From Alphaproteobacteria bacterium (lineage in GTDB: Bacteria > Pseudomonadota > Alphaproteobacteria > DSM-16000 > Inquilinaceae), in the NCBI GenBank assembly GCA_028277405.1, contig JANQGH010000071.1, positions 1 to 64,000 on the forward strand: DNA of 64,000 nucleotides, given 5' to 3'. The translations under genes were made by a program, and so were the position numbers. The notes beneath the pieces are model-generated. The model did no database searches and was not told the DNA's origin. It saw only the letters and a program-made list of their open reading frames with translations. Within the stretch, counting starts at the first letter, position 1; each line of letters opens with the position of its first letter. Below are positions 30,212 to 35,727 of this stretch, piece after piece.

Positions 30212-30793
30212 ATGAATGACACGAACGCCAGCGGCACAACCGGCCCGATCAGCGCGGCACGCCTGGAAAAGGCCGCGTTTGACTATCTGGGGCGATACAT
30301 GGCGTCGACCGAGACGCTGCGCCGTGTGCTCGAACGGCGCGTGCTGAAGGCCGGGCGAAGCGGCCCCGTTGATCAGGACGACGCAGAGGCGGTGATCGCG
30401 GGGGTCGTGGCAAAATGCCGGCGCCTGGGCCTGGTCGACGATCAGCGGTTCGCCGAAGTCCGCGCCGCCAGCCTGGCGCGCCGCGGCGACAGCCCGCGCG
30501 CGATCCTGGCCAAGCTGGCGCAAAAGGGCATCGATGGCGAGACCGCGCAGTCAGCGCTGGCGAAGCTTCGGGCCGAAAGCGAGACGGACCTGGCCCTGAC
30601 CAGCGCTGTCCGCCTGGCCGAACGCCGCCGGCTGGGGCCCTGTCGCCTGCGCGACCGTGAACAGCATCGAGACCGCGACCTCGCCGCCCTGGCCCGCGCC
30701 GGCTACGGCCTGGCCATCGCGCGCGCCATTGTCGACGCCGAGGAGGCTGAGGATCTGCAGGCCTTGGTCGCGCAGTCCGCCGGCGACAGCTAA
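30212..30793 (+). CDS. recX: RecX-family recombination regulator
   Basis: RecX binds and modulates RecA filaments in the cytoplasm. The 193-residue protein is made of the family's three-helix repeats: AAFDYLGRYMASTETLRRVLERRV, LGLVDDQRFAEVRAASLARRGDSPRAI, and KLAQKGIDGETAQSALAKL. A conserved RAGYGLAIARAIVDAEE segment is near the end. Starts at 30179 and 30212 are both possible; the shorter one is reported because the extra residues show no family similarity. recA itself is not in the window. Its end overlaps the mscS-type gene by four bases, convergent. Confidence 0.87.
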   Translation: MNDTNASGTTGPISAARLEKAAFDYLGRYMASTETLRRVLERRVLKAGRSGPVDQDDAEAVIAGVVAKCRRLGLVDDQRFAEVRAASLARRGDSPRAILAKLAQKGIDGETAQSALAKLRAESETDLALTSAVRLAERRRLGPCRLRDREQHRDRDLAALARAGYGLAIARAIVDAEEAEDLQALVAQSAGDS

Positions 30794-33156
30794 TCCTCCG
30801 CCGTCGGCCCGGTTTCGGGACTGTCAGGGTCGGCCGGTTTCTTGCGTGCCGATTTGCGTTTGTGCTTCCGCTCAGTAGCGCCGGATTTTGACGGCGCGGA
30901 TTCCAATCTGATCGGCCCGGCGGGCGCCTTGCCCTGCTTGTCGACGCCGAAATAGAGCGTCCGGTGCGGAAACGGTATCTCGATGCCCAGTTCGTCGAAG
31001 CGCAGCTTCATGCGGCGGTTGAATTCGCGCCCCACCTGCCATTGCTTGATCGGCAGGGTCTTGATGCGTGCCTTGATGATCACGGCACTGTCCGCGAAGG
31101 CGTCGACGCCCAAGACCTCGATATCGTCCAGCATCAGCGGCCCGACCTCCGGGTCCGCTCTCAGCTCAGCGCTTAGCTGGTTGATGACCTCGACCACCTG
31201 ATCGGTGTTCTCGCGATAGGCCACGCCGATATCCATGACGTAGTACGAGAACTCCTTGGTCTTGTTCATAACCGTGTCGACCTGGCTGAACGGCAGGATG
31301 TGGACGATGCCTTCGAGATCCCGCAGGCGCAGGGTGCGGATCGTCATCGCCTCGACCAGGCCGGCATGGCCGGCGACCTCGATCACGTCACCGACCTGGA
31401 TCTGGTCCTCGAACAGGATGAACAGGCCGGTGATGATGTCCTTGACCAGGGTTTGGGCGCCGAAACCCACTGCCAGACCAACGACGCCGGCGCCGGCCAG
31501 CAGCGGCCCGATATTGATGCCGACTTGCGACATCACGATCATGACCACGATCAGCAGCAGAACGACCAGGATGAAATTGCGCAGGAGCGGCAGCAAGGTG
31601 CGCTCGCGCGCGCTGCGCTCGATCAGATTGCCTTCTTCGTCCGTGGCCTTGAAATGCCGTTCGATCAGCGCGGTCACGATTTCCCAAACCGCCACCGAGA
31701 CCAGGACGACGATGACGATCGCCGACAGGTTGCCCAGGGCGCGCCGGCCGAGATCCGTGTCGAACCAGGCCAGGATGCCCAGCCCCCAGACCTCAAGCAG
31801 CAGAACGATCACGATCACGCCGAGCACGCCCTGGATCGTGCGCTTCAGCGCCGGCAGGTAGGCTGCCGGCTGGCGTTCTACGCCTGTCGCTTCGGCCTGT
31901 TCCTGCCGCCGCCGCTCAAACCGGTCCAACAGCCGCTCGATCGCGACCATGGCCAGTCGCGCCACGACAAGCAGCAGGAGGGCCAGAACCGTGCCGCGCA
32001 CCATGAACAAAAAGCCGTCGGGCACCCGCAGGACCCAGACCCCGAAGATCAGCACGATGTAGATGATCGCCAGCACGTGCCAGGAATAGGACAGCCGATG
32101 CCAGAAAACGCTCAGCCATTGCGACCGCGCGGACATGCGGCGGAAGGCCTGGCGCACCGGAACCCGCATCCGCAGGACCAGAACGACCATCAGAATGCCG
32201 GCGATGACCCCGGCCAGGCTGCGCAGACCTTGGGCGGCAGGCAGCGTGGCGCCGACCGCCAGCATGAACTCGGCGATCGCAATGCCCCAGATGATGACGC
32301 CGGCGATGACGCGAACCCATTTGAAAAGCTGTTTGGCGACGTCATCTTGCATCCGCACCAGCCGGACGTTGGGCGATCGCGGCGCCAGAACGAAGCGCAG
32401 CAGCGCAGTGACGATACCGACGGCCCAGACGGCGGAGACGAAGGTGATCGAGACGCTTTCGACCCGGAGCGGTTGGTTGAGCAGAACGATGGTGACGGTT
32501 GCACCGACCACAAAGCCGATCAGCGGCGCCAGGTCGATGGCCAAACGCGCCAAGGCCAGGGGTATCCGGGCGACCCGCGAACGTCGTGGGGGTCGGGCAC
32601 CGATTTCGTCTCGGTAGCGGACGGCAAGGCGGGCGATGACGAGCCGGACGACGTAGCCTATGCCCAGAACCAGCAAGATGCTGAGCGTCAGGTCGAGCCA
32701 TCGAAGCAATATGATGCTGCTGCCCAGCATGGCCTCGATCCAGACCAGGATGTCCGGAAGGCCCCGCACGGCGTGGCCGATCTCCGACAGGCGGTCGCCG
32801 ACATGCGCCATGCGTTCCGACACGAAATTGAGAAAGCCGCGCCCGGCCTCGAAGCTCTCCTCCTGGGGCTCCAACGCGTCTCGCATCAACTGCAGCTGAT
32901 CGATCAGCCGTTGTCGCGCCGCCTCGTCCTCCAGCACCGCGATCATGTCGTCGATCTCGGCCGCCTGCATTTCCGGTGTCGGATCCGGCGACGCGGCCTC
33001 CTCCACCGCAATGGTCAACTGGCCGAGGGCGGGCGCGAGAGGAAGGACGGCCAGACAGGCCAGCAGTGCCGAGAAAAGCAGCGCCGCCCGCCAGCCGGAG
33101 AACGTCTCGAGCGGCCGAAGCAATCGGTCGGAAACAGGATTGGCGACCCGCGACAT
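30790..33156 (-). CDS. Large MscS-family mechanosensitive channel
   Basis: This is a 788-residue inner-membrane channel. A Sec-like N-terminus (LLFSALLACLAVLPLAPALGQ) precedes a periplasmic helical stretch, and about nine further hydrophobic segments follow. The MscS pore and beta domain begins at LLAGAGVVGLAVGFGAQTLVKDIITGLFILFEDQIQVGD. The C-terminal vestibule includes DIGVAYRENTDQVVEVINQL and the final basic tail (KHKRKSARKK). It should open under membrane tension to release solutes. Its length is between MscS (286 aa in E. coli) and MscK (about 1100 aa), closest in plan to YnaI/YbdG-like or MscM-type extended forms. The next gene on the same strand is eight bases upstream. Confidence 0.9.
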   Translation of the reverse strand: MSRVANPVSDRLLRPLETFSGWRAALLFSALLACLAVLPLAPALGQLTIAVEEAASPDPTPEMQAAEIDDMIAVLEDEAARQRLIDQLQLMRDALEPQEESFEAGRGFLNFVSERMAHVGDRLSEIGHAVRGLPDILVWIEAMLGSSIILLRWLDLTLSILLVLGIGYVVRLVIARLAVRYRDEIGARPPRRSRVARIPLALARLAIDLAPLIGFVVGATVTIVLLNQPLRVESVSITFVSAVWAVGIVTALLRFVLAPRSPNVRLVRMQDDVAKQLFKWVRVIAGVIIWGIAIAEFMLAVGATLPAAQGLRSLAGVIAGILMVVLVLRMRVPVRQAFRRMSARSQWLSVFWHRLSYSWHVLAIIYIVLIFGVWVLRVPDGFLFMVRGTVLALLLLVVARLAMVAIERLLDRFERRRQEQAEATGVERQPAAYLPALKRTIQGVLGVIVIVLLLEVWGLGILAWFDTDLGRRALGNLSAIVIVVLVSVAVWEIVTALIERHFKATDEEGNLIERSARERTLLPLLRNFILVVLLLIVVMIVMSQVGINIGPLLAGAGVVGLAVGFGAQTLVKDIITGLFILFEDQIQVGDVIEVAGHAGLVEAMTIRTLRLRDLEGIVHILPFSQVDTVMNKTKEFSYYVMDIGVAYRENTDQVVEVINQLSAELRADPEVGPLMLDDIEVLGVDAFADSAVIIKARIKTLPIKQWQVGREFNRRMKLRFDELGIEIPFPHRTLYFGVDKQGKAPAGPIRLESAPSKSGATERKHKRKSARKKPADPDSPETGPTAED

Positions 33157-33163
33157 GGCCTTA

Positions 33164-34834
33164 CTACTCCGCCGCCATCGGCTGAGACGGCAAATCGCCG
33201 GCCGATGCGATCAGCCGGACAGACACCCGATCGGACTTGCCCTTCACCTCGGCCTGCTCCAGCGGAAATGCGCCGAGATCAATCGAGGCCGCAGCGGCAA
33301 CCGCTTCGGAAACGACAAGCTGGACATCGTTCGCCTTCGCCAGCCCCTCCAGCCGGCTGGCGGTGTTCACGGCATCGCCGATGGCGGTGAAGGACTTGGC
33401 CTTGCCGTAGCCGAGTTCACCGACGATGACCGGCCCGACATGGATGCCGACAGCGATGCGCATCGGCGCCGGCAGGTCGGCGGCCAGGGACTCGTTCAGC
33501 CGGATCAGGCCGTCATTCATCGCACGAACCGCATCCAGCGCCTGGCGGCTGCCCTGCTGGCCACCCTGGCTGACACCGAACAGCGCCATGACGCCGTCGC
33601 CGATGAACTTATCCAGGACACCACCGGTGCTTTCCACCGCCTGGCCCATCATTTCGAAGTACCGGTTCAGGACGAAGACCGTGTCATAGGGCAGCCGGCC
33701 TTCCGACAGGCTGGTGAAGCCGCGCATGTCGGCGAACAGGATGGCGATCGTGCGCTCCTGACCTTGCAGCACCGCCTGGGGCCGATAGGCGACCTCCGTA
33801 CTGGCATTGGGCGGCAGCAGCGGCGCGACCTGAAGGTCGGCCGTGGGCCGGACCTGGCAGGCCAGGCGCACGCCCGGCGGTGCGCCGATCCGGGTCAGCA
33901 CACGCTGTTCGGCCTCGTCGGGTGCCGGCAAGGCATCGCCGCCGGCGCCGACGCGAATGCGGCAGGTCGAACAGCGCCCGCGGCCGCCGCAGACCGAGGC
34001 GTGCGGAATGCCGTACTGGCGGCTGGTTTCCAAAACGGTGGCGCCGGGCTCGATCTCGACCCGCTGGCCGCTGGCATAGGTCAGCCGAGGCCGCCTGCTG
34101 CGCTTTTCGATGAAGATCCGGATGGAGCGCGCGACGAAGACCAGAACATAAAGGGCGACCAGCGCGGCGTAGCCCACATTGATCATGCGGTTCACGCGCG
34201 CGCCCACCTCCGGCGTGACGCCGGAGTCGCTCAGCAGCCCGGTCACCCAACCCTGTTCGGCCGCCAAGCGCTGAACCTCGACACCGGCGGAGATGAAGCC
34301 GGCAATGGCCAGCGCCGGAATGAGAATGGCGGCGATGGACAGGGGCCTGACCAGAGGCGGGTACCACGGCTTCAGCCTCAGCCAGAAATGAACGCCGATC
34401 ATGCCATGCACCCAGGCGGTGACGACCAGCGCGAGCTGCACGACGATGAGCCATGGGGTGAACACCCAATAGCTGGCGAGAACGAGCGCGTAGCTGAGCA
34501 GCACGCCCTCGCCGAACTGCGCGCCGAGGGCACCAACCATATGGTCGATCAGCAAAAACGGCACCGCCATGCCGAGCGCGATCTGCCACAGCTCCCACCC
34601 GGTCATGCGCAAGGTACGCCGGCGATAGAGCGACCACAGCGCCAAGGCCAGATGGACGGCGAAGGCAAGCGTCAGCAACGTCACCATCGGGGCGTTCGAC
34701 CAGACCACGGCGAACACCTGCAGCCCCGCCTCCATGGCCGACAGCGAAACGATGCCGAGAATGTGGTTCAGCAGATGGCAGACCACGAAGACGAGCAGGA
34801 ACAGGCCCGACCAAAGCCGCAAGCGCGCGATCAT
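33164..34834 (-). CDS. Membrane-anchored 2Fe-2S ferredoxin-adenylate cyclase fusion
   Basis: The 556-residue protein has three parts. Residues 1-245 hold about six membrane spans with histidines (His20, His24, His61, His98, His143, His149) placed like heme ligands of a succinate-dehydrogenase-type cytochrome b. Residues 250-340 form a 2Fe-2S ferredoxin domain with Cys282, Cys288, Cys291 (CGGRGRCSTC) and Cys326. Residues 360-545 form a class III nucleotide cyclase domain, with metal-binding Asp369 (FADMRGF) and Asp413 (IGDGVMALFG), Lys409 and the SFTAIGDAVNTASRLEG helix. The order suggests cAMP synthesis controlled by membrane redox state. The ferredoxin-cyclase pairing is known in databases; its signal is, to my knowledge, not established. 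Heme binding is inference. Confidence 0.9.
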   Translation of the reverse strand: MIARLRLWSGLFLLVFVVCHLLNHILGIVSLSAMEAGLQVFAVVWSNAPMVTLLTLAFAVHLALALWSLYRRRTLRMTGWELWQIALGMAVPFLLIDHMVGALGAQFGEGVLLSYALVLASYWVFTPWLIVVQLALVVTAWVHGMIGVHFWLRLKPWYPPLVRPLSIAAILIPALAIAGFISAGVEVQRLAAEQGWVTGLLSDSGVTPEVGARVNRMINVGYAALVALYVLVFVARSIRIFIEKRSRRPRLTYASGQRVEIEPGATVLETSRQYGIPHASVCGGRGRCSTCRIRVGAGGDALPAPDEAEQRVLTRIGAPPGVRLACQVRPTADLQVAPLLPPNASTEVAYRPQAVLQGQERTIAILFADMRGFTSLSEGRLPYDTVFVLNRYFEMMGQAVESTGGVLDKFIGDGVMALFGVSQGGQQGSRQALDAVRAMNDGLIRLNESLAADLPAPMRIAVGIHVGPVIVGELGYGKAKSFTAIGDAVNTASRLEGLAKANDVQLVVSEAVAAAASIDLGAFPLEQAEVKGKSDRVSVRLIASAGDLPSQPMAAE

Positions 34835-35107
34835 CGGGACCTGCCGCCACAGGGGGGCGCCGATCCGCCGAGGGGCAGCAACAGGTGCGCCGGCCCGAGG
34901 GCTGGCCGCCGGGACACGGCAAGGTGAAAGCCCCGGTTGTGTGGGGGTGATCCGTGCACGGTTCGGCGAAGGGTGGGCGACAACAAATCAGCGCCGCCTT
35001 GACGAGCGGTCACCACACGTACCGGAGGCTTGGGCATGTCGCGACGCTAGCGTCCAGAAGTTAGGGGCCCGACGATGGCCCCAACCGAACCAGCCTCGAC
35101 CGGGCCG

Positions 35108-35317
35108 TCAGTGCACCGTGCCCGCGTCAATCCAGCGCTCAACCACGCCGGCCGCGGCACCCGGCGCCGCCTCCGGGTGATGAAATCGATAGATCCGCAC
35201 GGCCGCCTCGTACGCCCGGCTCTCCGCCTGGCCGGCTTCGCACAAGGTCCGGTAGGCGCGCGTAACGGCGTCGCGACACCGGCAGGGGTCTTCCCCGCTT
35301 TCCCAATCGTCGGTCAC
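35108..35317 (-). CDS. Small conserved-type protein translationally coupled to fur
   Basis: This 69-residue protein is of unknown function. It is acidic at the N-terminus, with CRCRD near residues 12-16, a further Cys26 and a helical middle (GQAESRAYEAAVRIYRFHHPEA). The ATG overlaps the fur stop codon (ATGA, 35314-35317), which argues for real translation. The three cysteines and the His-His pair could bind a metal, but no known zinc-site spacing is recognised. A role linked to Fur function is only suggested by position. Confidence 0.65.
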   Translation of the reverse strand: MTDDWESGEDPCRCRDAVTRAYRTLCEAGQAESRAYEAAVRIYRFHHPEAAPGAAAGVVERWIDAGTVH

Positions 35318-35727
35318 GACGCGCTTTTCTTCATCTTGCGGCCGTAGAGTTCCAGCCGGTGGTCAACCAGATCGTAGCCGAGGCGGGCCGCGATCCGCTC
35401 CTTCAACTCTTCCAGCTCCTCATCCTGAAACTCGATCACACGGCCGGTTTCGAGGTCGATCAGATGGTGATGGTGGTCGAGATTGGCCTCGAACCGGGAA
35501 TAGTTCTCGTTGAAATCGTGCCTTTGGACCAGGTTCATTTCGTCCAGCAGATGCAGCGTGCGATAGACCGTCGCAATACTGACCGACGAATCAATGTTAC
35601 GCGCGCGTTCAAACACGGTTTCCACATTCGGATGGTCCTGCGCTTCCGACAGAACCTGAAGGATGAGCCGCCGTTGGCCGGTCATCTTCAAGCCAGCGTC
35701 GACGCAGCGCTGTTCCAGATCAATCAT
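35314..35727 (-). CDS. fur: Fur-family metalloregulator (Fur/Mur type)
   Basis: This 137-residue cytoplasmic repressor is of the Fur family. The N-terminal winged helix (GLKMTGQRRLILQVLSEAQDHPNVETVFERA, then SVSIATVYRTLHLL) precedes the dimerisation domain. The metal-binding region reads EANLDHHHHLIDLETGRVIEF. The CxxC structural zinc pair of E. coli Fur is absent, as in alphaproteobacterial Fur/Mur, which may sense manganese or iron. It is not Irr-like, since the heme-regulatory motif is missing. The downstream 69-aa gene overlaps its stop. Confidence 0.9.
   Translation of the reverse strand: MIDLEQRCVDAGLKMTGQRRLILQVLSEAQDHPNVETVFERARNIDSSVSIATVYRTLHLLDEMNLVQRHDFNENYSRFEANLDHHHHLIDLETGRVIEFQDEELEELKERIAARLGYDLVDHRLELYGRKMKKSAS

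Follow-up and report, generated by a model that had tools for sequence, protein, structure and literature searches.

The window, by which we mean the whole stretch of 64,000 nucleotides of alphaproteobacterial DNA analysed here, contains a gene whose product appears to join a membrane domain, a ferredoxin domain and an adenylate cyclase. This raised the question of whether the three domains do sit in a single chain, and what such a protein would sense. The open reading frame at 33164-34834 on the minus strand is uninterrupted, starts with ATG and comprises 556 codons. The features of the gene and its two neighbours are as follows.

33164..34834, minus strand: cyaC-like gene, 556 aa, encoding a predicted membrane diheme-B anchor, a 2Fe-2S ferredoxin domain and a class III adenylate cyclase
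34085..34834, minus strand: N-terminal membrane domain, residues 1-250, six long helices (AlphaFold2, conservation)
33842..34072, minus strand: 2Fe-2S ferredoxin domain, residues 255-331 (Pfam Fer2, E 2e-8)
33230..33757, minus strand: class III adenylate cyclase catalytic domain, residues 360-535 (Pfam Guanylate_cyc, E 2e-19)
30790..33156, minus strand: large MscS-type mechanosensitive channel, 788 aa, the next gene downstream (Pfam MS_channel domains)
35314..35727, minus strand: Fur-family regulator, the next gene upstream on the same strand (NCBIfam Fur models, below the equivalog cut-offs)

The Fer2 and Guanylate_cyc matches of the window protein both lie well above the curated Pfam cut-offs, and membrane helices are predicted for residues 1 to about 245. 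Pfam and the structure models give the order of the chain as a hexahelical membrane domain, then the 2Fe-2S domain, then the class III cyclase. The AlphaFold2 model of the whole chain has a mean pLDDT of 90.5, and that of the membrane domain alone a mean pLDDT of 95.4 with a pTM of 0.88; three rows from plasmid records were left out of the structure-model input. The reading frame, the Pfam matches and the structure models thus bear out the initial annotation, which had placed all three domains in one chain.

The protein is not of a new kind, but a further member of the CyaC kind, whose architecture has already been published. The published account of CyaC (SMc01818) from Sinorhizobium meliloti presents it as a class III adenylate cyclase whose hexahelical membrane domain carries two heme-B groups, which are probably arranged as in the diheme succinate dehydrogenases and fumarate reductases (PMC10463352). 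Heme binding, the 2Fe-2S cluster, the response to quinone and the synthesis of cAMP are all reported as shown for this protein (PMC10463352, PMC9552081, PMC13259868), the findings of Wissig et al. 2019 being taken from the citing papers of 2022, 2023 and 2026. The initial annotation had held that heme in such a cyclase had not been shown; as heme-B in S. meliloti CyaC was already in print (PMC10463352, PMC9552081), that statement was wrong and out of date.

To compare the two proteins we used CyaC from close relatives of S. meliloti as a stand-in for SMc01818. These relatives were reached through a stretch of pSymB with 93-95% DNA identity, and each of their genomes has one full-length CyaC homologue. 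The cyaC gene of S. meliloti 1021 itself is chromosomal. In one relative (genome G612, locus L171) the cyaC homologue is flanked by LysR-type and TetR-type genes, exactly as published around SMc01818, where the neighbours SMc01817 and SMc01819 are LysR and TetR regulator genes, the TetR protein being CycR. Aligned over their full lengths (548 columns), the L171 protein and the window protein share 42% identity. In the reciprocal search with the relative's CyaC against the window genome, the window gene was recovered with an E value of 3.5e-129 and the next cyclase with 4e-26. Judged by these sequence comparisons, the window protein is probably orthologous to SMc01818. It shares with S. meliloti CyaC the domain order, the length, the four histidines, the four cysteines and the cyclase residues, although the identity is only 42%, and it belongs to a separate, larger clade of the family than the characterised protein. 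A maximum-likelihood tree places the window protein with its own family and the Sinorhizobium protein with Rhizobiales sequences. The neighbours also differ, the window gene standing beside Fur-family and MscS genes and the S. meliloti gene beside TetR (CycR) and LysR genes; neither a TetR (CycR) nor a LysR gene is immediately adjacent to cyaC in the window.

Because the fold search with the whole chain was swamped by cyclase domains, a model of the membrane domain by itself served as the query. Its best match in the PDB is subunit C of the Wolinella succinogenes QFR (1qlb, Z 14.6 over 195 residues, rmsd 3.1), with subunit C of the Desulfovibrio gigas QFR (5xmj) at Z 13.8 and a Chloroflexus succinate dehydrogenase subunit at Z 11.2, values to be read with the caveat that chance matches between helical bundles may score up to Z of about 13. 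All chains with Z above 8 are SQR/QFR cytochrome b, and below them is a wide gap; the first match outside this group is cytochrome b561 at Z 6.3. At the level of sequence profiles, the membrane part of the window protein has no Pfam match to the Sdh_cyt/SdhC families, and the best of the SdhC families, TIGR02046, matches weakly and under its curated cut-off (18.9 bits against 96, E 9e-4). The diheme-B QFR subunit C (1qlb, 5xmj) and the window domain have in common the fold and a tetra-histidine arrangement. Whereas subunit C pairs with FrdA/FrdB, the window domain is fused to the ferredoxin and cyclase domains, and an additional C-terminal helix runs towards these cytosolic domains.

Which residues would hold the hemes can be judged from an alignment of 63 full-length homologues, Sinorhizobium CyaC among them. 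H20, H61, H98 and H143 are invariant in 63/63, and several glycine and tryptophan positions of the membrane domain are also invariant over long evolutionary distances. The initial annotation had singled out H20/H24 and H143/H149 and left out H61 and H98. H20 and H143 hold up, but H24 is kept in 58 of the 63 sequences and H149 in 44, so the proposed ligands were half wrong and the mutational plan that went with them needs to be changed. On this basis we discarded H24 and H149 as heme ligands for the family in general; conservation suggests that H20, H61, H98 and H143 are the likely set. When the membrane domain was compared by profile with the sequences in the PDB, a single weak match emerged, 6lum_C (E 0.41), in which, counting positions by hand from the printed alignment, H20 falls exactly on His C47 and H61 on His C87. 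In the 6lum structure these two histidines are ligands of hemes bD and bP, the partner of His C47 being His D65 and that of His C87 being His D107 (PMC7447783). By analogy with these pairs, H20-H98 and H61-H143 would be the likely heme pairs of the window protein. We infer a cofactor content of two b-hemes and one 2Fe-2S cluster.

Conservation extends to the soluble domains. The ferredoxin cysteines C282, C288, C291 and C326 are invariant in the 63 homologues, as are D369, D413, N490 and R494 of the cyclase, with K409 kept in 59/63 and D487 in 62/63. We take D369 and D413 to bind the metal, K409 and D487 to select adenine, and N490 and R494 to stabilise the transition state, as in class III cyclases. 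The adenylate-type catalytic set (two Asp, Lys with Asp, Asn with Arg) is therefore complete, and both the four cluster cysteines and the full complement of catalytic residues named at the outset are confirmed. The cyclase domain matches 1wc1, the cyanobacterial CyaC (the shared name is unrelated), with Z 25.9. This protein and Rv1625c from Mycobacterium share the catalytic fold and residues with the window protein, but their regulatory parts are different. Rv1625c likewise has six helices. Its regulation is described as lipid-based (PMC12505454).

The architecture is widespread. About 75 full-length homologues were found in a sample of 289 genomes of the class (about 75/289 genomes, counted from the listed places), which excludes chance as the explanation, and further full-length homologues are present in other classes of the phylum. 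Within the same family, 14 of 17 genomes have a full-length homologue, and there is one fragment in addition. The CyaC design is thus no rhizobial oddity; it is common in the Alphaproteobacteria, extends beyond them and carries an invariant four-histidine signature, which makes signalling from quinone to cAMP a probable general device. Shorter relatives also occur. Further afield in the phylum, proteins of about 310 aa have the ferredoxin and cyclase domains without a matching membrane part (G788:C69:6421-7311 and others of family f184), and open frames of 380-386 aa have the membrane and ferredoxin domains without a matched cyclase (G154:C1:1801018-1802055 and G060:C16:27940-29001). The latter are possibly membrane redox proteins or split genes. 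The existence of both forms indicates that the modules are separable.

Taken together, we consider it highly probable (about 0.92) that the window protein is a class III adenylate cyclase of the CyaC type, regulated by redox state, with a membrane diheme cytochrome b as its quinone sensor. The membrane domain would be a diheme cytochrome b like those of the succinate/fumarate:quinone oxidoreductases, probably binding two b-hemes through H20, H61, H98 and H143. Ubiquinone and ubiquinol would exchange electrons with these hemes, so that the quinone pool would set their redox state. This state would be passed on, perhaps by way of the membrane-adjacent 2Fe-2S domain, to a homodimeric cyclase, which would then make cAMP. 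The part that the cluster plays in passing on the signal is inferred, as is the direction in which the cyclase is regulated in this organism. A sensor that turns the redox state of quinone or the membrane into cAMP had been suggested from the start, and homology to CyaC lends the suggestion good support.

It is also conceivable, if improbable, that the protein is a CyaC homologue in which the 2Fe-2S domain is the main sensor, of cytosolic redox state, oxygen or NO, and the membrane part serves chiefly to anchor it. The four cysteines of the cluster are conserved as strictly as the four histidines, and the ferredoxin-cyclase proteins of about 310 aa imply that this pair can work without a heme domain. 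However, a mere anchor would have no need of invariant histidines, glycines and tryptophans, and in S. meliloti CyaC the redox sensitivity is tied to the hemes, according to Klein et al. 2023 (PMC10463352). The fold match to QFR subunit C could also be taken to mean that the membrane domain is an electron-transferring enzyme, for example a quinone reductase, with cAMP output as a secondary matter; the ferredoxin domain would be able to pass on electrons, and the 380-386 aa homologues seem to do without the cyclase domain. We regard this as very improbable, as neither the chain nor its two same-strand neighbours contain a flavin or dehydrogenase domain and the full set of cyclase catalytic residues has been retained. 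Sensing of quinone through the diheme domain remains the preferred reading.

The neighbouring genes raise a further question, namely whether the Fur regulator and the MscS channel work together with the cyclase as a single unit that connects redox state, osmotic stress and iron. Between the stop codon of the cyclase and the start of mscS there are 7 intervening bases, rather than the eight given originally. In five genomes from one genus within the same family (g278; loci L147, L148, L149, L150 and L151) a Fur homologue with 79.5% identity adjoins cyaC and mscS, and all three genes again share one strand. The order there is mscS-fur-cyaC, which differs from the window (30790-35727, minus strand), where cyaC sits in the middle. 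Against a common unit, MscS was not found beside cyaC at the other eight same-family loci examined, some of which have short flanks, and the same holds for nearly all loci of the wider set, again with some short flanks, L063 alone having a divergent MscS. As the linkage is seen only in the window and g278, it appears to be lineage-specific, and we rejected it as a feature of the CyaC family, the neighbour not being kept outside g278. The joint expression with MscS proposed earlier is possible at the window locus but is not conserved across the loci of the family. A single unit of cyclase, channel and regulator therefore seems doubtful, and just as doubtful is an operon partnership of cyaC, mscS and fur within the window lineage that would bring osmotic release, iron status and the redox state of respiration under joint control at one locus. 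Co-function of CyaC with MscS and Fur is a weak possibility.

We also observed that the window genome (G000) has more than a dozen other class III cyclase matches and 18 matches to cNMP-binding domains, which would suggest that this organism is rich in cAMP signalling.
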